Below are positions 4,578-24,000 of a stretch of DNA of 64,000 nucleotides, piece after piece; within the stretch, counting starts at the first letter, position 1; each line of letters opens with the position of its first letter. The position numbers and the translations under genes were made by a program. Location: assembly GCF_014205295.1 (NCBI RefSeq), contig NZ_JACHNF010000001.1, positions 5,704,001 to 5,768,000 on the forward strand, given 5' to 3'. This stretch comes from Kribbella solani (GTDB lineage: Bacteria; Actinomycetota; Actinomycetes; Propionibacteriales; Kribbellaceae). The notes under the pieces are model-generated. The model made no database searches. It saw nothing but the letters and a program-made list of their open reading frames with translations, and was not told the origin of the DNA.

Positions 4578-7500
4578 CTACTGCTGTTTGGCCTGATGCT
4601 TGATCCGGTTGGTCAGTTCGGTGACCTGATTGAAGACCGACCGCCGCTCGGACATCAGCTGCCGGATCTTCCGCTCGGCGTGCATCACGGTCGTGTGGTC
4701 GCGGCCGCCGAACTGCTGGCCGATCTTCGGCAGCGACAGGTCGGTGAGTTCGCGGCACAGATACATGGCGATCTGCCGCGCGGTCACCAGTACGCGGCTC
4801 CGGCTCGATCCGCACAGGTCGTCGATGGACAGCCCGAAGTACGAGGCGGTCTGGCCCATGATCATGCTCGCGGTCACCTCGGGCTTGCTGCCCTCGGGGA
4901 TCAGGTCCTTCAGCACGATCTCGGCCAGGCTCAGATCGACCGGCTGCCGGTTCAGGCTGGCGAATGCGGTCACCCGGATCAGCGCGCCCTCGAGCTCGCG
5001 GATGTTCGTCTGCACCTTCGACGCGATGAACTCCAGCACCTCCGGCGGCGCGGTCAGCCGCTCGGTCGCCGCCTTCTTCCGCAGGATCGCGATCCGGGTC
5101 TCCAGGTCCGGCGGCTGGATGTCGGTGATCAGACCCCACTCGAACCGGTTCCGCAGCCGGTCCTCCAGCGCCTCCAGCCGCTTCGGCGCGCGGTCGGAGC
5201 TGATCACGATCTGCTTGTTCGCGTTGTGCAGCGTGTTGAAGGTGTGGAAGAACTCTTCCTGCGTCTGGATCTTGCCTTCCAGGAACTGGATGTCGTCGAT
5301 CAGCAGCACGTCGACATCGCGGTACCGGCGCTGGAACTGGGACGCCTTGTCATCACGGATCGCGTTGATGAAGTCGTTGGTGAACTCTTCACTCGACACG
5401 TACCGGACCCGGGCGCCGGTGTAGAGACTGCGTACGTAGTGCCCGATCGCGTGCAACAGGTGCGTCTTGCCCAGACCGGAGTCGCCGTAGATCAGCTGCG
5501 GGTTGTACGCCTTGCCCGGCGCCTCCGCGACCGCGACCGCCGCCGCGTGCGCGAACCGGTTCGAGCTGCCGATGACGAACGTCTCGAAGGTGTACTTCGG
5601 GTTCAGCCGCGCCTCACCCTGCGCCTCGGTAGCCGGCTGGGTCGGCACTGAGCCGCTCGGCCGCGGAGCAACCGAACCAAGCGGCTGCCCGAACGGCGGC
5701 TGCCCATAGTGCTGCGGCGCAGCCTCCTGATGCGGCGCGTACTGCGCCCCGTGATCCGGATCAGTCAGCGCGGACTGGATCGTCGGCTGGTACGCGCCAT
5801 CCGTACGCAACGGTTCCCGCACCGCCGGCGGCTGCGGCCGCCCACTCCCCGCCCGCTGCCCACTCCCAAGCCGCCCCTGCTGCTCCTGCACATTCCCCTG
5901 AACACCCTGCTGCCCAGCCTGCTGCCCAGCTCCGTGCCCAGCCTGCTCCCCAACTCCTTGCCCGGCGTGCTGCCCAGCTCCGTGGCCAGCCTGCTGCCCA
6001 ATCCCTTGCCCGGCTTGCTGCCCAGCCTGTTGCCCAGCACCCGGCTGCCCCAACTGCTGTGCCTGCTGCTGCCCCTGCCCGACCGGCTGCCCCTGCCCGT
6101 GCTGCTGCTCCTGGCCGTGCTGCTGCCCGTGCTGCCCCTGGCCGTGTTGCTGCGCCCCATTCGCCTGCTGCGACCGGTCCAACTGCTGCGACTGATCCAC
6201 CTGCGGTTGCTGGTCGGCCTGCCCACCCGGCTGCAGCCCTGCCTGCTGGTGCGACTGCTGCGACGGCTGCTGCCCGATCTCACCGAACTGCCCGTGCCCG
6301 AGCTGACCTGCCTGACCAGGACCGGCCTGACCCGACTGCCCGGACTGCCCGTGCTGATCCGACTGCCCGGACTGCCCGTGCTGATCCGGCTGCCCGGACT
6401 GACCGGACTGCCCAAACTGACCCGACTGACCCGACTGCCCGAGCTGGCTGTACTGCCCGAACTGCCCCGGCTGCCCAAGTCCACCGTGCTGCCCCGGCTG
6501 CCCAAGTCCACCGTGCTGCCCCGGCTGACCGAACGGCCCGGGCTGCTGGTGTGGTTGCTGTTGGGCGTGCTGCTGCAGATGAGGCTGCTGCCCGTACTGC
6601 TGCTGCCCCAGCGAGTTCTGCTGGAGATGCTGACCGTGCTGCTGTGATTGCGCGGGTTGCTGCGAGTACTGCTGCTGCGGCGCCGCCTGCTGCTCCTGAA
6701 TCTCCGGGTCGAGTGACGGGTCGACAGTCACCGCGATCCGGATGTCCCGACCGAAGCTCTCGGTCAGAATCCGCTCCAGGTCCGGCCGCAGCCGAGTCTC
6801 CAACTGCCCCCGGGTGAAGTCGTCCGGCACCGCCACGATCGCCGTACTCTCGTGCAACGTCACCGGCCGAGAGTTCGTCAACCAGGCCCGCTGATTCGGC
6901 GGCAACCCAGCAAGCACCCGAGCCCACGCATCCCCCAGATCCGTAGCCGCCCCCACCACCGCCCCACCCAACTGCCCCGAGTACTGCCCACCCGGCTGCT
7001 GGTTGTGCTGCTGGGAGTGCGGCTGTCCGGTTGCCTGTTGGGTTGGCTGTTGTCCGAGGTGCTGTTGTCCGGCTGCCTGCTGGGTGTGCTGCTGCCCGAG
7101 GTGCTGCTGCCCGTGCTGTCCTTGGACCTGCACTTGCTGCACCTGTTGCTGAGTCTGAGGTTGCTGCGGTGCCATCTGCGGCTGCTGCGCTTGCTGAGGA
7201 GCCGCCTGCTGCGGCACGTAGTGCGGAGCCGACTGCCCAACCAACTGCTGCCCACCAACTTGCTGATACGGCTGCTGCTGCGAAACCTCCTGAGCCACCC
7301 GCTCCTGAGCCACCCGCTCCTGAGCGACCTGCTCCTGAGGCACCCGTACGTCAGTCGCGTACTCCTGCGATACCTGCCCGTGAAGCTCCAGCTCCCGAGC
7401 CGCCTGCCCGTGGGCCGCCTGCTCCTGAGCTGCCTGCCCGTGGGCCGCCTGCCCCTGAGGTACGTGTTCGTGGGGCATCTGTTCGCGGGACTGACCAGCC

Positions 7501-8852
7501 GGCGAGAACGACTCCTGCGTCAGCTCATGCGCCTGCTGCGGCACCAACTGCTCCTGGGGGAGCTGCTCCGACGACAGCTGTTCCTGGCCGACCTGCTCCG
7601 ACTGGATCTGTTCCTGATTGGTCTGCTCCGCGGGCGGTTGTTGCTGCTGAGCCTCTTCCTGGGAGACGCCGTCGGCAGGCGACTGGTCCTCAGAACCGTG
7701 CTGCTGAAACGCCTGCTGCCCGGTGACTTGCCGCCCGGCGACCGGCTGCTCCGATGACGGCTGCTCCGGGGGCTGCTGTACGGGGGACTGCTGCACCTGA
7801 CCCTGTTGCTCCGACGTGTCCTGCCCCAAGACCTGTTGTTCCGCGAGTTGGAGCTGTTGGTCGGTGGAAGGCTTGGGTGTCGGCTCGTCGGTGGCGGACG
7901 TGTCCGCGTTCGAGTGACCGACGGACTGTGGCTCGGCGGGGGAGTTGCTCGGCCGCTGATCGTCGGCGGGCGCCGCGGGCTGCGCGCTCGACCCGGACGC
8001 CGCCGGGAACAGCGGTTCCGGGACCTGCGGGTCTGCGGTGTGCAGATCTGCGGTGGCGGAGCCGGGGGTGTCCGAGCCGACGGTCTGCGCGTTCGGGCTG
8101 ACCGTCTGCGAGTTTGGGTTTGAGGTTTGTGGGCTTGGGTTGTAGGGGGACGAGGGGGTGGGGGTCCACTGGTTGGGGGCTGGGTTGTCCACTGGTGCAT
8201 CACCCTCGTTCGGTCCCGGGACGGCTGTGTCTCGGGACCCAGTACCCCATTCGGCGGATCCGCTCCACTGGTTGCCCGTACCGGCGTGTTGGATGTCGCC
8301 GACGGCGGGGGCGCTGCCGAAGTAGGTGCTGCCGACGGCCGGGAGGTCGGTGGCGGCACGTTCCAGTTCGGAGCGGTAGCCGTACGGTCCGGGTGGTGGC
8401 GCGGGGCGGTACCCGGAAGCCGGCGGTTGCTGTGGCATCGGGATCGGCAGTGACGGGCTCAGGTAGTCACCCGGATCCGTCCACGGCCGGTCCGCCCGCG
8501 ACTGCTCCCGCTGGGACTGCTCACGCCCCGACCGGTCCGTCTGCGACCGGTCCGTCTGCGACTGGTCCGGCCGCGGTTGCTCTGTCCGCGGTTGTTCCGT
8601 GCGGGGCAGCTCTGATCGGAATGGTTCCGGGCGGGGCTGTTCCGGGCGGGGGCGTGGCTCGGGTGCGGGTGGGACCTCGGTGCGGAAGTTCGCGGTCGGC
8701 TCGGGCCGGAGGCCGGCGTCGGGTTCGGGCCGTAGGTCGTGTTTGCCGTCGGCGGCGAACTCCGGTCGAGGTTCGGCCGGGCCGGTGGTGAATGGGCCGG
8801 TCGTGAATGGGCTGGGTGTGAAATCCGCATTGGCGGAATGGTCCTCGACCAC
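4578..8852 (-). CDS. dnaA: Chromosomal replication initiator DnaA, giant form with Gln-rich extension
   Basis: The frame encodes 1424 residues; DnaA is usually about 450-650. Domain I starts near residue 638 ([13 protein letters not shown]). The AAA+ domain III starts near 1085, with Walker A GDSGLGKT at 1123-1130 and Walker B aspartates at 1186-1187. Domain IV ends the protein, with the DnaA-box signature [14 protein letters not shown] from 1383. Residues 1-630 are an extension, first Pro/Glu/Arg-rich, then Ser/Thr/Pro-rich, then strongly Gln-rich. Residues about 715-1080 are a Gln/Gly-rich domain II. The GTG at 8852 has a good ribosome-binding site (GGGGAG, six-base spacing), which supports the long form. 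In-frame GTGs at 6959 and 6956, just before domain I, have only weak upstream signals and would give a conventional protein. All core motifs are intact. Confidence 0.95.
5610..6710 (-). repeat. Gln/Gly-rich low-complexity domain II of DnaA with tandem repeats
   Basis: The stretch linking domains I and III encodes about 370 residues dominated by Gln, Gly, Ser and His. It includes true tandem DNA repeats: a 27-bp unit at 6333-6386 (two copies, encoding nine-residue DQHGQSGQS-type units) and another 27-bp unit at 6462-6527 (2.4 copies, encoding GQPGQHGGL-type units). Around 5905-6060 a looser GQQAGQ/GAGQQ repeat is present. Such units are prone to slippage, so length variation between strains is expected. 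Confidence 0.8.
6960..8852 (-). repeat. N-terminal low-complexity extension of DnaA
   Basis: This part encodes about 631 residues before domain I. Residues 1-140 are Pro/Arg/Glu/Asp-rich with repeated RPEP/RTEQPR-like units. Residues about 140-320 are Ser/Thr/Pro/Asn-rich. Residues about 320-630 are Gln/Glu/Ala/His-rich with repeats such as AAHGQ and VAQER. No stop codon interrupts it, and its composition matches the domain II linker, which argues it is translated as part of DnaA. Confidence 0.6.
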
Positions 8853-9504
8853 GCGTTGCTCCCCGAATCCATCGCTGCGGTGGCCGGCGCAGACCGGGAA
8901 AGCTCCCGTCCGGCGCGACCGTTCGACCCGATACCGTGCGGCTGTTGAGTCGGCGTGCTGTTCGGCTCAGCGCGGTAGCTACCGCCGTTCCTGGTATCCG
9001 CCTTGTCCACACGGTTGTCCACAGTTGTGAACGACCGCCGGAGCAGGTTGGTTACCGATCGCGGGGTGTGGGACCTCTGGTGTGAAGGAGTGACGCTAAC
9101 AAGTCCGCCCAGCCACCTTCAAGCCGTCATCCACAGGCTATGAACACCAAATTGGGGGCAACCTGCGGCGTGTCGGGTGGACGGCGGAGCGTAGTCATGG
9201 TTGGAAATCGCTCTCGGTGCCCGATCTGAGCCGGAGCGTACGGGGTGGGTGGCGGGCGTCGTCGGCAACCGGCTGTCCACTAGACTGTCCACAAGCCTGT
9301 GGAAAACTCTGGGGATACCTGGTTTGACCTGTCCACAGCAGGCCACCTATCGTGGATCGGTCGGTGTTGAGCCGGCCCTTTCGTGCTGCGCTCCCTGCGG
9401 GACCTTACTGGTTCTCCGACGGTGTGCAGGACTGCACCACCGGGCAGATCCTAATCAGTGGATTTGTCGACAATTTGTGATCTCGAGTAACCGGAGTCAT
9501 TCCA
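8853..9504. promoter_or_regulatory. dnaA-rpmH intergenic region with DnaA boxes
   Basis: A 652-base gap between divergent dnaA and rpmH. Perfect actinomycete DnaA boxes TTGTCCACA lie at 9003-9011 and 9015-9023, in the same direction 12 bases apart. Further boxes are TCATCCACA 9127-9135, CTGTCCACT 9273-9281, CTGTCCACA 9285-9293 (again 12 bases apart), TTTTCCACA on the minus strand at 9298-9306 and CTGTCCACA 9329-9337. It must hold the dnaA and rpmH promoters. The boxes suggest DnaA autoregulation, part of the origin, or both. A TTGTCGACAA palindrome lies at 9464-9473. Confidence 0.75.
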
Positions 9505-12174: not shown

Positions 12175-12846
12175 ATGAACGAGGACGTTTCACGTGAAAC
12201 ACCGCCGCTCGTGGAGAAGCTGTTTCCACGGGCGGCGGTCCGGCTTTCGGCGTACGCCGAACTGCTCGCCACCGAAGGCACTCTGCGTGGGCTGATCGGT
12301 CCGCGAGAGGTGCCGCGGCTCTGGGACCGTCATCTGCTGAACTGCGCGGTCGTCGAACGACTGGTTCCGGAAGACGCGTCGGTCGCCGATGTCGGTACGG
12401 GCGCCGGACTGCCTGGGATCGTGCTCGCGATCGTCCGGCCTGATCTCCAGGTGTCGCTGGTCGAGCCGTTGCTCCGGCGGACCACCTTCCTTCAGGAAGC
12501 AGTCGACGTACTGGAGCTGGACAACGCGACGGTCGTCCGGGCCCGAGCGGAGGATCTTCCGCCGGCGTCGTACGACGTGGTGACTTCCCGCGCGGTCGCT
12601 CCATTGGGCAAACTGGCGCGATGGTGCCTGCCGCTCTGTGTCGAGGGTGGACTGATGCTGGCGATGAAGGGGTCGTCCGCGGAGGAGGAAGTGGACGCCT
12701 CGGAACGTGAATTGACCAAGCTCGGAGCAGAGCTTTGGCATATTCATCAACTCGGCGGCGAGGAACTGGCCCAGCCCACGACTGTGGTGAGTATTGTGGC
12801 CGGACGTGCTGCAGGGGGATCCCGGCACGGAAGACGCGGGAGGTGA
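12175..12846 (+). CDS. rsmG: 16S rRNA (guanine-N7) methyltransferase RsmG
   Basis: A 223-residue SAM-dependent enzyme methylating G527 of 16S rRNA (E. coli numbering); its loss gives low-level streptomycin resistance in several bacteria. The SAM loop [11 protein letters not shown] is at residues 70-80, and RAV and KGSS motifs follow. The fifth codon onward (VSRET) is written by a parS site at 12187-12200, so the start of this gene doubles as a centromere element. The stop lies at the proposed parA start. Confidence 0.96.
12187..12200. other. parS site 1 (in rsmG)
   Basis: The perfect 14-bp palindrome GTTTCACGTGAAAC is the core of the bacterial parS consensus bound by ParB. It lies within codons 5-9 of rsmG. 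Confidence 0.95.
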
Positions 12847-12854
12847 GCGGGTTG

Positions 12855-14294
12855 GTGAGTCGTGCCCTCGGATGGCCCGAGAAGAGCACCGGTGAGCCGA
12901 GGTCGGAACCAGGCATCGGCTGGCCGACCGAACCGGACGCCGCGGTTCGCGTGGTCACCCAGGACGCGACTCCCAACCCGACCCCAGCCCAGAACACCTC
13001 AGCTGTCGTTCCGGTCCCGCCGATCGACACTTCGGGGCTTCGTGCTGCCGCCGCTGCCGGCCTGGACGGTCCGGCCGTGGTCGACCCGAGCGCCGTTTCA
13101 CGTGAAACAGCGGCCGCCGTTTCACGTGAAACACCCTCGATGCGGGATGATGGTTCCGAGTCCGATTCGGCACCTCTGGTGGACGCCGAGCCGGACTTCT
13201 CCGAGTCTCCACCGCCTGTGGATGACCACCGCATGAAACTGCCGGTTTACCCGGGAATTCATCCACAGAAGCCTGTGGACGGAGCTGGGGGCAGACCCGC
13301 TCCGACCCCTACAGACATCCTCTTCGGGCCAAGTCCCGCACCTATTGGAATGGGCGCTATGACTGCCGCACAGATCGCCGCGCGGGCTACGTCGGACGAG
13401 CTTCAGCGACGACTCCTTGAGACTCCGATCGCCGCCGCGACCGAACGGACCCTGCTGGTGAATGAAGGACGCACGATGGGCCGGGAGTTCCCGCTGCCCG
13501 ACCAGACTCGAGTCTTCGTCGTCGCGAACCAGAAGGGTGGCGTCGGCAAGACCACCACGACGGTCAACGTCGCCGCCGGACTCGCGCTGTACGGCGCCAG
13601 GATCCTCGTGATCGACCTCGATCCGCAGGGAAACGCGTCGACGGCCCTGGGCATCGACCACGCCGAAGGCACGCCGGGTGTGTACGAGGCCGTGATCGAG
13701 GGCGAGCCGCTGAGTAAGCTGATCCAGCCCTGTGCCGAGCATCCCGGGATTCAGGTGATCCCGGCGACGATCGACCTGGCCGGCGCCGAGATCGAGCTGG
13801 TCAGTCTGGTGGCCCGCGAGAGCCGGCTGAAGAGCGTGCTCGAGGCCTACCTGTCCGAGACTGAAGCCGCGGGGGAGAAGTACGACTACGTCTTCATCGA
13901 CTGCCCGCCATCGCTCGGCCTGCTGACCGTGAACGCGCTGACCGCCGCGCGCGAGGTGCTGGTCCCGATCCAGAGCGAGTACTACGCGCTGGAGGGTCTG
14001 TCCCAGCTGCTCCGCCACATCGACATGGTGAAGTCGCACCTGAACCCCGGGCTGGACGTCTCCACCATCCTGCTGACGATGTACGACGCCCGGACCAAGC
14101 TGGCCGGCGAGGTGGCGGCGGAGGTGCGCGGCCACTTCAAGGACGCGGTGCTCCGGACCGCGGTGCCGCGCTCGGTGCGGATCTCCGAGGCGCCGAGTCA
14201 CGGGCAGACCGTGCTGGCGTACGACCCCGCGTCGGCGGGCGCGCTGTCGTACCTGGAAGCGTCCCGCGAGATCGCGATGCGGAACAACGCCTGA
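12855..14294 (+). CDS. parA: Chromosome partitioning ATPase ParA (Soj)
   Basis: A ParA/MinD-type ATPase of about 479 residues. The deviant Walker A motif [10 protein letters not shown] is near residues 227-236, the DLDPQGNAS switch follows, and the Walker B segment [12 protein letters not shown] lies about 125 residues on. The first 200 residues are a Pro/Ala/Asp-rich disordered extension, longer than usual. The start is uncertain: GTG 12843 (overlapping the rsmG stop), TTG 12852 and GTG 12855 all sit near a GGGAGG site. Two parS sites lie inside the extension. ParA drives origin segregation with ParB. Confidence 0.93.
13095..13108. other. parS site 2 (in parA)
   Basis: Perfect GTTTCACGTGAAAC, in frame as VSRET within the disordered ParA N-terminus. 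The next copy starts 24 bases later. Confidence 0.95.
13119..13132. other. parS site 3 (in parA)
   Basis: Perfect GTTTCACGTGAAAC, 24 bases (eight codons) after site 2 and in the same frame, giving a second VSRET in ParA. Confidence 0.95.
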
Positions 14295-14316
14295 TCTGTC
14301 GGTTCGGTATGGCACC

Positions 14317-14330
14317 GTTTCACGTGAAAC
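14317..14330. other. parS site 4 (parA-parB gap)
   Basis: Perfect GTTTCACGTGAAAC in the 85-base gap between parA and parB. Confidence 0.95.
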
Positions 14331-14379
14331 GTGGCAGCGCAGCAGTAGTTCAGCAGGTTGTCGATCTCGAGGGAGCGCG

Positions 14380-15387
14380 ATGAACACCCGACTCGGACGC
14401 GGACTTGGTGCGCTGATCCCCAGCTCGCCGACGCCCACCACCCTCGGCAGCAAGTCGAGCTCCATCCCTGGCGCACCGCCGGTGGCCAAGCCGGCCGACG
14501 CCGACGCGGGGGACGCGAGCACGCCAGGCACGCCAGGTACGGCCGTGTCGAGTGGACCGGAGTTGGCGGTTGTCCCGGGAGCCTCGTTCGCGGAGATCGA
14601 CGTCGAGAAGATCACCCCGAACCCGAAGCAGCCGCGGACGGTCTTCGACGAGGATGCGATGGACGAGCTCGTCCACTCGGTCAAGGAGATCGGTCTGCTG
14701 CAGCCGATCGTCGTTCGGCGGCTCGACGACGGCAAGTACGAGCTGGTGATGGGTGAGCGGCGCTGGCGGGCGACGCAGGCGGCCGGTCTGACCACCATCC
14801 CAGCGATCGTCCGGGAGACCTCGGACGACGACATGCTCCGCGACGCGCTGCTGGAGAACCTGCACCGCAGTCAGCTGAACCCGCTCGAAGAGGCGGCCGC
14901 GTACCAGCAGATGCTCGACGACTTCGGCTGTACGCAGGAAGTGCTCGCGACCCGGATCGGGCGTTCGCGTCCGCAGATCTCCAACACGCTGCGGCTGCTG
15001 AAGTTGCCGGCATCGGTGCAGCGGCGAGTTGCGGCCGGCGTACTGTCGGCGGGTCACGCCCGTGCCCTGCTCGGACTGCCGAGTGGCGATGCGATCGAGC
15101 GGCTGGCGCAGCGGATCGTTGCCGAGGGCATGTCGGTGCGTACGGTCGAGGAGATCGTTGCGCTCGGCGACATGAACACCGACGACGCGCCGGTGGCGCG
15201 GAAGCGGAACAAGCCGGTCGCGCCGCGACTGGTCGATCTGGCCGATCGGCTCTCGGATCGCTTCGAGACTCGGGTGAAGGTCGACCTCGGCAAGACCAAG
15301 GGAAAGATCACCGTCGAGTTCGCGTCGATCGACGACCTGGAGCGAATCGTCACCCTGATGGACCCGAATCGGGTCTCCGGCGACTGA
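14380..15387 (+). CDS. parB: Chromosome partitioning protein ParB (Spo0J), CTPase
   Basis: A 335-residue DNA clamp that binds parS and spreads using CTP. It starts with the ParA-contacting basic stretch [14 protein letters not shown]. The CTP-binding GERRWR motif is at residues 125-130 and ENLHR at 159-163. A helix-turn-helix ([20 protein letters not shown]) and a C-terminal dimerisation domain follow. A GGGAG site lies four bases before the ATG. It is co-directional with parA, with parS between and on both sides. Confidence 0.97.
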
Positions 15388-15507
15388 AAATCCGATCCAA
15401 CGGTGAGTCCGCGAACTCGCTGAGGATCGCGCTCACAGAGCTAGTTCGAAGTACGAAGTATGCGATTCATACCCAGAGGGATTTGTCGACAAAACCACTT
15501 AGAAACT

Positions 15508-15545
15508 AATGGGGTCACCGTTTCACGTGAAACGGTGACCCCATT
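15508..15545. other. parS site 5 in a perfect 38-bp palindrome
   Basis: The core GTTTCACGTGAAAC is at 15520-15533. It is extended on both sides by exact inverted arms (AATGGGGTCACC and its complement), so the whole of 15508-15545 is a perfect palindrome. It lies between the convergent ends of parB and the DUF3817 gene, where an intrinsic terminator would be expected. It may serve both as parS and as a hairpin; no T-run follows on the plus strand. Confidence 0.9.
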
Positions 15546-15558
15546 GTTCTGAGCAGGG

Positions 15559-15912
15559 TCAGCGACCGAGAAGCTCGTGCGTCGTCTTCCGCTCGGCGTA
15601 GAACGACAGGAACGGAATCGTCCCGGCCAGCGCCATCAGCACGAGTCGCGGGAACGACCAGCGGACCCGGCGGAACAGGTCGAAGGTGCCGAGCAGATAC
15701 ACCATGTACAGGAACCCGTGCAGTGGGCCGATGACGTCCATCGCACCGGCGCTGTCGGCGAAGTACTTGAGCGGCATCGCGAGGAATACCAGCAGCAGGA
15801 GCATCACCCCGACGATGTACGCGATCACGCGGTAGCGCATCAGCGCACCGCGAACAGCCGGGGTGAGGGGCCGGGAGCCGGCGGAGGTGGCGGGATCGGC
15901 AGAGGAAGTCAC
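15559..15912 (-). CDS. DUF3817 family membrane protein
   Basis: A 117-residue protein with three hydrophobic segments and the DUF3817 pattern of a Lys-Tyr after the first helix, GPLHGFLYMVYLLGTFDL in the second and FAER-like residues at the end (SFYAERKTTHELL). Function is unknown. The GTG start at 15910-15912 overlaps the SURF1 stop as GTGA, so it is translationally coupled as the last gene of the ddl-like/SURF1/DUF3817 operon. Confidence 0.88.
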   Translation of the reverse strand: MTSSADPATSAGSRPLTPAVRGALMRYRVIAYIVGVMLLLLVFLAMPLKYFADSAGAMDVIGPLHGFLYMVYLLGTFDLFRRVRWSFPRLVLMALAGTIPFLSFYAERKTTHELLGR

Positions 15913-16886
15913 GCTGAAACGGTACCGCTTGACCCCACACGCGCACCGGCCTGGTCGGCCTCCCGGCCATCCAGCCCGTCCCTGTCGTCCAACGCACCGG
16001 ACCCATCAGTGCGGCCAGCGCCATCGGCGCCTACCGCGACGTCCGCTCGGGCGCCATCATCGGGTCCTTCGCCCGCGTCGTCGCCCGCGTCGTCGTCGGG
16101 GTCATCGGACTCGCCCTGGGAGCGGTGTGCGTCGATCACCATTCGGCCCCACATCCACAGGGTGAAGGCCGCGAAGACCCACCACTGGAAGGCGTATGCG
16201 ACGTTCCGCAGGCCGGCCTGCTCGGTCGGTGGGGGAGGCGGGGTGACAGCCGCCGGCGCCGGCGCCGGTACAACTCCGGCGTCCAACGAGGTCTCCACCA
16301 CGAACGCGTCGTACAACCGGTAATCCACCATGTGCACGATCGTCGGAATCCGCAGAGACGACAGCACCCGCCCCTTCGCGGCATCGCCGGAAGAGTCCTC
16401 GGCCTCGGACGCGACTACCGCTCCGGTCAACCGCACAGTGCCAGTCGGCGCCTTCACGGCCGGATCGGAAACCGAAGGCACCCAGCCCCGGACCACCATC
16501 ACTCCGCCGCTGGCGTCCAGTTTGACCGGAGAGGCGACCCAGAACCCGTCCCTGCCGCCCTGTGAGCGGTTCGCGATCAGCACCTGGTCCGCCGCAGGCC
16601 CCCAGGTCCCTTCGACTGTCACGCGGCGACCGACGGCCTTGGACGGCAGTCCCTCGTCGATCGAGAACAGCGACTGCAGCGACACCGGCGCGCCCTCGGC
16701 TCGCTTCGCCGTCGCGTTCGCCGTCTTCGAGTGATAAACGTCCAGTTGCCACACGCCCAGCACCGACATCACCGCGGCGATCGCCAGCGCCAGCGCCAGC
16801 AGTCCGCTCCACCGCGGGGTCAGCACGATCCGCCAGAGCGGACGATCCGGCTGACTGTCAGACGCCAGGTCGCGGGTGTCGGACAT
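15909..16886 (-). CDS. SURF1 family cytochrome oxidase biogenesis protein
   Basis: A 325-residue protein with the SURF1 plan: one transmembrane helix near residues 27-46, an extracytoplasmic domain (GRRVTVEGTW, then VVRGWVPS) and a second helix in RNVAYAFQWWVFAAF near residues 228-250. SURF1 proteins help assemble aa3-type cytochrome oxidase. The last 70 residues form a highly acidic Asp/Gly/Ala-rich tail not part of the family core. An AGAGGG site precedes the ATG. The gene lies 14 bases after the ligase gene. Confidence 0.88.
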   Translation of the reverse strand: MSDTRDLASDSQPDRPLWRIVLTPRWSGLLALALAIAAVMSVLGVWQLDVYHSKTANATAKRAEGAPVSLQSLFSIDEGLPSKAVGRRVTVEGTWGPAADQVLIANRSQGGRDGFWVASPVKLDASGGVMVVRGWVPSVSDPAVKAPTGTVRLTGAVVASEAEDSSGDAAKGRVLSSLRIPTIVHMVDYRLYDAFVVETSLDAGVVPAPAPAAVTPPPPPTEQAGLRNVAYAFQWWVFAAFTLWMWGRMVIDAHRSQGESDDPDDDAGDDAGEGPDDGARADVAVGADGAGRTDGSGALDDRDGLDGREADQAGARVGSSGTVSA

Positions 16887-21855: not shown

Positions 21856-24000
21856 ATGGCCGTGGACACACCCGCACGACCGCCCCGAACGACCCGGCCC
21901 GGTCTGCTGCACCGGGTGTCCGGCTGGGCTATGCGGCGTGCCGTACTGGCGCTGGTGCTGTGGGTGGTCGCGCTGGCCGCCGTGACCGTCGCATCGACGC
22001 TGATCGGCGACCGGTACAAGAACGACACCTCGCTGCCGGGCACCGACTCCCAACGGGTCACGGACATCTTCCGCGCGCATCAGCCGCAGGGCGACACCGC
22101 CTCGGTGCAGATCGTGGTCCGCGCCGACGGCGGGCTCGACGCCGACAAGTCCCGGGTGGCGTCCATGCTGGCCGCGGTCCGCGGGCTCCCGCACGTCGCC
22201 TCGGTCGCGGATCCGTTCACTGCTCCGGGCTCTTTGTCGACAGATCGACGTACCGCTTACTCGACCGTCGCCCTCGACGTCGCGCAGGCGGACATGCCGA
22301 TCGACGACGTCCGGGCGATCATCCACCAGGCCCAGGACTTCGCCCGGCCGGGACTGCAGGTCGAGGTCGGCGGTGACCTGGCCCGGACTGCCGCGGAGAG
22401 TTCGGGTGGTGCCTCCGAAGGCGTCGGCATCCTTGCCGCGCTGGTGATTCTGGTCTTCCTGTTCGGATCGTTGCTCGCGGCAACACTTCCGCTGCTGACG
22501 GCGGTGTTCGCGGTCGGCAGTACGCTCGGCCTGCTGGTGCTGGCGTCGCACTTGTTCACGGTGCCGGAGTACACCGCGCCGGTGATGATGCTCGTTGGCC
22601 TCGGCGTCGGCATCGACTACGCGCTGCTGATCTTCTCCCGGTACCGGCATGAGTTGCTCAAGGACGGCACCGACCGTGCGTCCGCGTCGACCGTGGCGCT
22701 GGACACCGCCGGCCGTTCGGTGATGTTCGCCGGCTGTACGGTCGTGATCGCCCTGCTCGGCCTGCTCGCATTGGGACTTGGTGCTCTGCAAGGCGTCGCG
22801 CTCGGCGTCACGTTGACCGTACTGACGACGATGCTTGCCGCCGTCACCCTGCTGCCCGCGCTGCTGACCCTGTTCGGCAAGCGGATCGAGCGGAGCGTAC
22901 GCAAGCACGCCGCGAAGAGCCGGCGGACGCCGGGCGACGGCTGGCGGAAGCTGGCCGCGATGGTGCAGCGCCGTCCGCTGATTCCGTTGGTACTCGGGGT
23001 GGTCGCGCTGATCGCGTTGTCCTTGCCGGCGTTGAACATGCGGCTGGGGTTCGCCGATGCCGGCACCGATGCGCCGACGAAGACCAGCCGGAAGGCGTAC
23101 GACCTGTTGGCCGAAGGCTTCGGGCCGGGATTCAACGGGCCGCTCGTCGTGGTGTCGCAGGGCGATCAGGCAGCGGCGCAGGAGCTCGGCAAGACCCTCG
23201 GCGCGGATCCGGACATCGCAGCGGTCACGCCGCCGCAGGTACTTCCGGACGGCAAGATCGCGACCGTACTGGCGTTCCCGAAGTCGGCGCCGCAGGACGC
23301 GGCGACCAGCGACCTCGTCCAGCGCCTGCGCGACGACACGCTGCCGAAGCTCGAGGCGCAGACCAAGGCGACGTACCTGGTCGGTGGCTCCACCGCGGCG
23401 GCAGACGACTTCGCCGCCGCGGTCAGCAAGCGGCTGCCGATCTTCGTCCTCGTGGTGGTCGGACTGTCGGCGCTGTTGCTGATGGCGGTGTTCCGCTCGA
23501 TCCTGATCCCACTGAAGGCGGCCGCACTCAACCTGCTCAGCATCGGCGCCTCGCTCGGGGCGATCACGCTGGTGTTCCAGCAGGGCTGGTTCGGCGCGCA
23601 GGCCGGGCCGATCGAGGCGTTCGTGCCGGTGATGATCTTCGCGATCGTGTTCGGGCTGTCGATGGACTACGAGGTGTTCCTGGTGTCCCGCATCCACGAG
23701 GAGTGGCGGCGTACGAACGACGCGCGGGCCGCCGTTCGCGAAGGACTCGCCACCACCGGCACCGTGATCACCGCGGCGGCCGCGATCATGATCGTGGTCT
23801 TCGGCGCGTTCCTGCTCAGCCCGGATCGGATGCTGAAGCAGTTCGGCCTCGGTCTCGCGACCGCCGTACTGATCGATGCGTTGCTGATCCGGTGCGTGAT
23901 CGTCCCGGCAGTGATGCGGTTGTTCGGCGACCGCGCATGGTGGCTACCGCGTGGCCTCAACCGCATCCTGCCGAGGATCAAGCTGGAGGATCACTCGTAG
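21856..24000 (+). CDS. MMPL/RND family membrane transporter
   Basis: A 714-residue RND-type exporter with two repeats, each having a large extracytoplasmic loop followed by a transmembrane bundle. The proton-relay motifs GIDYALLIFSRYRHEL (first half) and MDYEVFLVSRIHEEW (second half) are present, as in MmpL proteins. A GAGGAGG site precedes the ATG. It probably exports lipids or toxic hydrophobic compounds under the neighbouring PadR. The stop overlaps the convergent next gene by 10 bases. Confidence 0.9.
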   Translation: MAVDTPARPPRTTRPGLLHRVSGWAMRRAVLALVLWVVALAAVTVASTLIGDRYKNDTSLPGTDSQRVTDIFRAHQPQGDTASVQIVVRADGGLDADKSRVASMLAAVRGLPHVASVADPFTAPGSLSTDRRTAYSTVALDVAQADMPIDDVRAIIHQAQDFARPGLQVEVGGDLARTAAESSGGASEGVGILAALVILVFLFGSLLAATLPLLTAVFAVGSTLGLLVLASHLFTVPEYTAPVMMLVGLGVGIDYALLIFSRYRHELLKDGTDRASASTVALDTAGRSVMFAGCTVVIALLGLLALGLGALQGVALGVTLTVLTTMLAAVTLLPALLTLFGKRIERSVRKHAAKSRRTPGDGWRKLAAMVQRRPLIPLVLGVVALIALSLPALNMRLGFADAGTDAPTKTSRKAYDLLAEGFGPGFNGPLVVVSQGDQAAAQELGKTLGADPDIAAVTPPQVLPDGKIATVLAFPKSAPQDAATSDLVQRLRDDTLPKLEAQTKATYLVGGSTAAADDFAAAVSKRLPIFVLVVVGLSALLLMAVFRSILIPLKAAALNLLSIGASLGAITLVFQQGWFGAQAGPIEAFVPVMIFAIVFGLSMDYEVFLVSRIHEEWRRTNDARAAVREGLATTGTVITAAAAIMIVVFGAFLLSPDRMLKQFGLGLATAVLIDALLIRCVIVPAVMRLFGDRAWWLPRGLNRILPRIKLEDHS

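Follow-up and report, generated by a model that had tools for sequence, protein, structure and literature searches.

A parS-centered palindrome adjoining a conserved array of 8-bp boxes behind parB in Kribbella solani, and a possible role of the array in limiting ParB sliding

Behind parB in Kribbella solani, a perfect 38-bp palindrome with a parS core at its center is adjoined on its left by a tandem array of 8-bp boxes. The array was missed in the preliminary description of this DNA and is the more widely conserved of the two features. Tentatively, and somewhat short of probable, the two are read here as parts of one element, in which the palindromic parS stands at the outer edge of a conserved combination of array and parS behind parB, and the array limits the sliding of ParB. 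The sequence shows the palindrome, the convergent junction, the conserved array, and the position of most parS sites between two arrays; from it, we infer that the array would bind a protein, that the bound protein could act as a roadblock, and that the hairpin might end transcription. Coordinates refer to the window, the whole stretch of 64,000 nucleotides that was analyzed. Its relevant features are listed from left to right, with a strand where one applies.

9449..9496: weak partner array with box TGTCGACA at 9465-9472; score 15.5, strong only in the box itself
12187..12200: parS in rsmG (motif search)
13095..13108: parS in the parA reading frame (motif search)
13119..13132: parS in the parA reading frame (motif search)
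14317..14330: parS between parA and parB, in a palindrome of only 16 bp (motif and palindrome search)
14380..15387, + strand: parB (Pfam ParB_N/HTH_ParB/ParB_C)
15460..15507: tandem array of 8-bp boxes, ATGCGATT CATACCCA GAGGGATT TGTCGACA AAACCACT TAGAAACT (array score)
15484..15491: best box, TGTCGACA; its start precedes that of the parS core by 36 bp
15508..15545: perfect palindrome or hairpin with parS central (palindrome search, folding, and genome-wide stem search)
15520..15533: parS core GTTTCACGTGAAAC, the fifth and last of the genome (motif search)
15559..15912, - strand: DUF3817 gene, convergent with parB (PF12823)

The palindrome at 15508-15545 holds the core GTTTCACGTGAAAC centrally, at 15520-15533, between two exact 12-bp arms, and the pair just beyond it (15507/15546) is a mismatch. 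This bears out the preliminary description, which had placed a parS core with exact 12-base inverted arms at the junction where parB (+ strand) and the DUF3817 gene (- strand) converge. Among the perfect palindromes of the 64-kb window it ranks first by length, the second reaching only 18 bp. As a single strand it is predicted to fold at -30.4 kcal/mol (z -7.7) into a stable, GC-rich hairpin with a short loop of 4 nt, all features of the terminator type. The inverted stem GGGTCACC..GGTGACCC has no second copy in the whole 7.85-Mb genome, and this single occurrence rules out that the arms belong to a terminator stem used repeatedly in the genome. At ~0.28 complementarity per position, the calculated chance of 12 matched arm pairs is ~2e-7 per site, and the longest perfect arm among 148 other parS sites from 37 Kribbella loci is 9 bp; both support the earlier claim that arms of this length do not arise by chance. 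The sole Rfam match in 14000-16500 was a sub-threshold miRNA (E 0.11, below gathering), which was set aside as a hairpin look-alike.

Five parS cores, and no more, occur in the 7.85-Mb genome at one mismatch or fewer, and all of them lie within 12187-15533, in agreement with the four other sites counted earlier. The core at 15520-15533 has the marks of a chromosomal parS, i.e., a palindromic core (GTTTCACGTGAAAC), parB adjacent to it, and dnaA/dnaN within ~13 kb. The copies in the rsmG and parA frames (12186-13133) translate to VSRET peptides; here the DNA site shapes the protein sequence. The dnaA reading frame (4578-8852) is 1424 aa long because a very long Q/G-rich linker separates its N- and C-terminal domains.

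The junction was compared across 38 Kribbella genomes. A parB match was found in 37 of them, and the locus from parB to DUF3817 was readable in 36; the two left out are G036, which has no parB match, and L116, in which a contig ends before DUF3817. A parS-like site lies within the interval in all 36 readable loci, and in each the core has a TGTCGACA box (one mismatch or fewer) 15-38 bp away. In these composite sites, the core is GTTTCATGTGAAAC, one base off parS, in 24 of 36 loci, perfect in 7, and another one-mismatch variant in 5. The box of L117, 15 bp from its core, lies beyond the scan range, and this locus was added by hand to the 35 others for the counts of arms and T-tracts. A strict pattern combining box and parS occurs once per genome in 32 of the 38 genomes, with 0 control hits.

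The arms of the composite sites behave differently from their cores. Perfect arms of at least 4 bp flank 20 of the 36 composite sites, compared with 5 of the 148 other parS sites (37 loci). When left and right arms were re-paired between genomes, the observed mean was reached in 0 of 10,000 trials, in a test that merges identical arms but not phylogeny and in which related genomes are non-independent samples. A tendency to self-complementary flanks, with varying arm sequences, is not private to this genome. The 12-bp arms themselves are private to it, because L117, the sister genome on the parB tree, has arms of only 2 bp, and 5 of the 36 sites have none. Thus, the full arms are not conserved in relatives, an outcome that the preliminary description had itself named as speaking against its reading.

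In many Kribbella loci, the last opposite-strand gene has its 3' end close to the parS-like site. The site lies ~50 bp or less from the DUF3817 stop in this genome and several others, and in further loci it falls within the final codons of a methyltransferase-like gene inserted there. Methyltransferase-like and RibD-reductase-like genes, both named by eye from their translations, are variably present in the parB-DUF3817 interval across L116-L152, and the parS-like site persists across the genus while these genes come and go. The methyltransferase-like frame ends across the site in several loci.

The array at 15460-15507 is built from an 8-bp palindromic unit that approximates WRKCGMYW. Its array score of 22.7 is the highest in the window, and 100 shuffles of the window gave 17.1 at most. 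Another peak resembling an array, at 22219, falls within a reading frame and was treated as chance. Across Kribbella, the array is shorter and partly degenerate. A lag-8 signal is present between the box and parS (z 7.7, from related genomes), and none is seen across the genus in the left 56 nt (z 0.2); chance may therefore account for the left units here. A third 'conserved' box ~68 kb to the left (G000:C1:5651020), seen in all 14 loci fetched, was rejected because coding sequence accounts for it, namely GPYVDKS on the reverse strand, which, read by eye, presumably echoes a GH43 motif.

Outside Kribbella, the six-unit array score is highest in the locus behind parB in 61 of 64 related loci. 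The matrix was trained on 42 box-bearing loci from outside Kribbella, which makes 42 of the 61 passing loci non-independent. Among the loci outside the training set, 19 of 22 pass, and those titled Streptosporangiaceae MAG, Actinopolymorpha, and Trebonia do not. The median array has 8 units. In 56 of the 64 loci, the gene that follows, as called by a simple GC-frame rule, lies on the opposite strand. TGTCGACA itself is found in 43 of 64 loci in the span -60..+500 around the parB stop; when all 96 palindromic 8-mers with four G/C were counted in the same way, the next best reached 13, and the median was 0. Base identity in the 64 nt to the right of the box peaks at lags 8, 16, and 24 (z 13.4, 11.1, and 6.6; 42 box-bearing loci), i.e., the units are short, contiguous, and in register, as in arrays of the ribbon-helix-helix (RHH) type. 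At the class level, the score behind parB exceeds 20 in 5 of the 29 loci scored, two of which come from one order.

Only 3 of the 64 loci outside Kribbella have a parS-like core (three mismatches or fewer) at most 500 nt from the parB stop. In L202, from a Nocardioides-type genome (G268:C22:80000-90000, 5271), a GTTTCATGTGAAAC core behind parB occupies the apex of a long GC hairpin, CCACGGGCCCCGGA..TCCGGGGCCCGTGG, and this parS-in-hairpin is apparently independent of the one described here. L227, from another actinobacterial family, has a parS in a perfect 22-bp palindrome, CGCTGTTTCACGTGAAACAGCG, 16 bp after the parB stop. L216, also from another family, shows a near-perfect run of 8-bp repeats, CGTCGACC/AGTCGACC, behind parB. 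Searches of open-licence PMC papers gave no title or abstract that describes an array of this kind or a parS terminator.

A second array is found near dnaA. A strict 4-unit pattern matches in 8 of 59 genomes of one Nocardioides-type genus, although this pattern is insensitive, and a backwards control also matched several of the 8 genomes. Where the genes are recognizable, the strict matches are in dnaA or behind parB. The dnaA-linker array is present in all ten Nocardioides-type genomes examined for the dnaA-to-parB region, five of which had been picked for the parB side only. It lies between the N- and C-terminal matches in nine of the ten; in the remaining one, it sits at the margin of the C-terminal match. 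Each of the seven continuous dnaA-parB regions has exactly two peaks of at least 15, spaced 6.3-6.8 kb apart, and 18 of their 21 parS sites (one mismatch or fewer) fall between the peaks. In the K. solani window, the weak partner at 9449-9496 is in the dnaA-rpmH intergenic region, just before rpmH. The left partner in Kribbella is approximately one box and little more, with a score of at least 15 in 6 of 10 loci.

These arrangements can be accommodated in a mechanism based on a known effect of bound proteins. DNA-bound TetR stops the spreading of ParB clamps from one side in vitro, as described in an excerpt of PMC7053999. Arrays filled by several dimers near a parS, placed around a parS cluster, could be a natural boundary or a stop that renders loading one-sided. 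In the proposed mechanism, dimers of a predicted protein would fill the array cooperatively, and the geometry suggests that this protein is of the RHH type. The protein coat would act as a roadblock to ParB clamps, keeping ParB that loads at the parS cluster within the parAB operon and letting it spread from the outer parS to one side only. In the Nocardioides-type genomes, the boundary on the other side would be the dnaA array. In K. solani, the long hairpin arms would be a lineage-specific addition, probably also ending transcription from both genes.

Several observations speak against this proposal. The outer parS is outside the array bracket, and confinement would therefore be incomplete. 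The Kribbella array is also short, its left partner being little more than one box, and the GTTTCATGTGAAAC core at 24 of the 36 Kribbella sites is one base off parS, which makes the ParB site there only putative. A Pfam RHH_1 search of this genome gave one match, an unrelated-looking 60-aa protein encoded 3.2 Mb away and far from oriC. As a lone gene at that distance, without a link to the array, it was rejected as the array binder.

Alternatively, the junction may hold only a parS and a bidirectional intrinsic terminator, with the array being incidental, an explanation that appears unlikely. The strong hairpin (-30.4 kcal/mol) and the convergence of the two genes at the site agree with it, as does the Nocardioides-type locus L202, where a 14-bp GC hairpin in a comparable place carries a parS-like core in its apex. 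Termination is possible in this genome because T makes up 5 of the 8 bases following the 9-bp GC stem on both strands (ATTGTTCT, ATTAGTTT). However, after the full 12-bp arms, T accounts for 3 of 8 and 4 of 8 bases here, and a count of 5 or more T among the 8 bases beyond the full arms is reached on neither strand at any of the 36 Kribbella sites. Arms of at least 4 bp accompany these tails in 20 of the 36 sites, 5 sites are without arms, and a terminator scan of the window has no entry for 15508-15545. With a U-tract that is not conserved across the genus and no entry in the scan, the site can plausibly be a bidirectional intrinsic terminator in this genome only. The preliminary description had read the element as a ParB loading site and a bidirectional transcription-blocking hairpin at once, which is supported in part; its parS core, non-random hairpin, and convergent junction (with a parS-like site in 36 of 36 loci) hold, whereas the arms and the U-tract are not conserved. 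Moreover, the array is kept outside Kribbella far more widely (61 of 64 loci) than the parS-like core (3 of 64), which argues against an incidental array.

Two further explanations concern the boxes themselves. They could be DnaA sites that form a reservoir or a regulatory cluster around oriC, which we consider improbable. The DnaA-box consensus is TTGTCCACA, and TTGTCGACA is one base away from it; one array is in dnaA, others are near oriC, and the origin region of this genome has TTGTCCACA boxes at 9003 and 9015. A DnaA box cluster would consist of TTGTCCACA-type 9-mers, whereas the boxes here read TTGTCGACA, with G in place of the second C of TTGTCCACA, and the units (consensus WRKCGMYW) are 8-bp palindromes in strict register whose RKCGMY part does not preserve TTGTCCACA. 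The arrays could also be a second centromere-like site, at which an RHH protein takes part in origin segregation itself and does not merely set a ParB boundary. This seems hardly likely, even though the contiguous short repeats are like plasmid RHH centromeres, as portrayed in excerpts of PMC7308502 and PMC9499535, and the arrays are located at parB and dnaA. The Pfam RHH_1 search, covering one genome, gave no candidate RHH partner near the arrays.

The preferred reading remains an array that limits ParB sliding. A wider version of it, on which we are more hesitant, is that Nocardioidaceae and Kribbella share an undescribed marker of the origin domain. In this version, arrays of 8-bp boxes at the 3' end of parB and in or next to dnaA would bracket oriC and the parS cluster, and a cooperative RHH-like protein would read them as a ParB-domain boundary or a second chromosomal centromere. 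What keeps a sliding ParB clamp close to the origin is, to our knowledge, an open question in the field. With its conserved, defined sequence, its bracketing of the parS cluster, and its short distance from a parS, such an array would be a concrete candidate boundary that can be deleted. The array could likewise serve as bait in the search for a new protein that binds the origin in a large family of bacteria.

The locus shares features with several known systems and departs from each of them. Like other chromosomal ParB-parS (ParABS) systems, it has the exact 14-bp core, an oriC-proximal cluster, and an adjacent parAB; unlike them, one of its sites is the center of a 38-bp palindrome and has a fixed place next to a tandem array of 8-bp boxes where two genes converge. 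The GC-rich perfect stem, the 4-nt loop, and the convergent junction are also found in intrinsic bidirectional terminators, but here the T-tract is weak and absent in relatives, and the apex is a predicted protein-binding site. The met boxes of MetJ are likewise tandem 8-bp palindromic boxes, although they are promoter operators, whereas the boxes described here are at the 3' ends of genes and inside dnaA. Near the partition genes of plasmids TP228 and pSM19035, RHH proteins bind contiguous arrays of short repeats, according to excerpts of two reports (PMC7308502, PMC9499535). The excerpts describe arrays of several units, which are tetramer boxes with spacers in parH of TP228 (ParG) and 7-bp repeats in parS of pSM19035 (Omega). 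In contrast, the units here are 8-bp palindromes that are chromosomal and stand beside an ordinary parABS; the relation to plasmid RHH centromeres is one of resemblance, not membership. Finally, the GTTTCATGTGAAAC core of 24 of the 36 Kribbella sites retains one intact GTTTCAC half, as in the half-parS binding of Pseudomonas aeruginosa. The latter involves hundreds of scattered heptamers in the excerpted account of PMC10419367, whereas Kribbella has one fixed site per genome.
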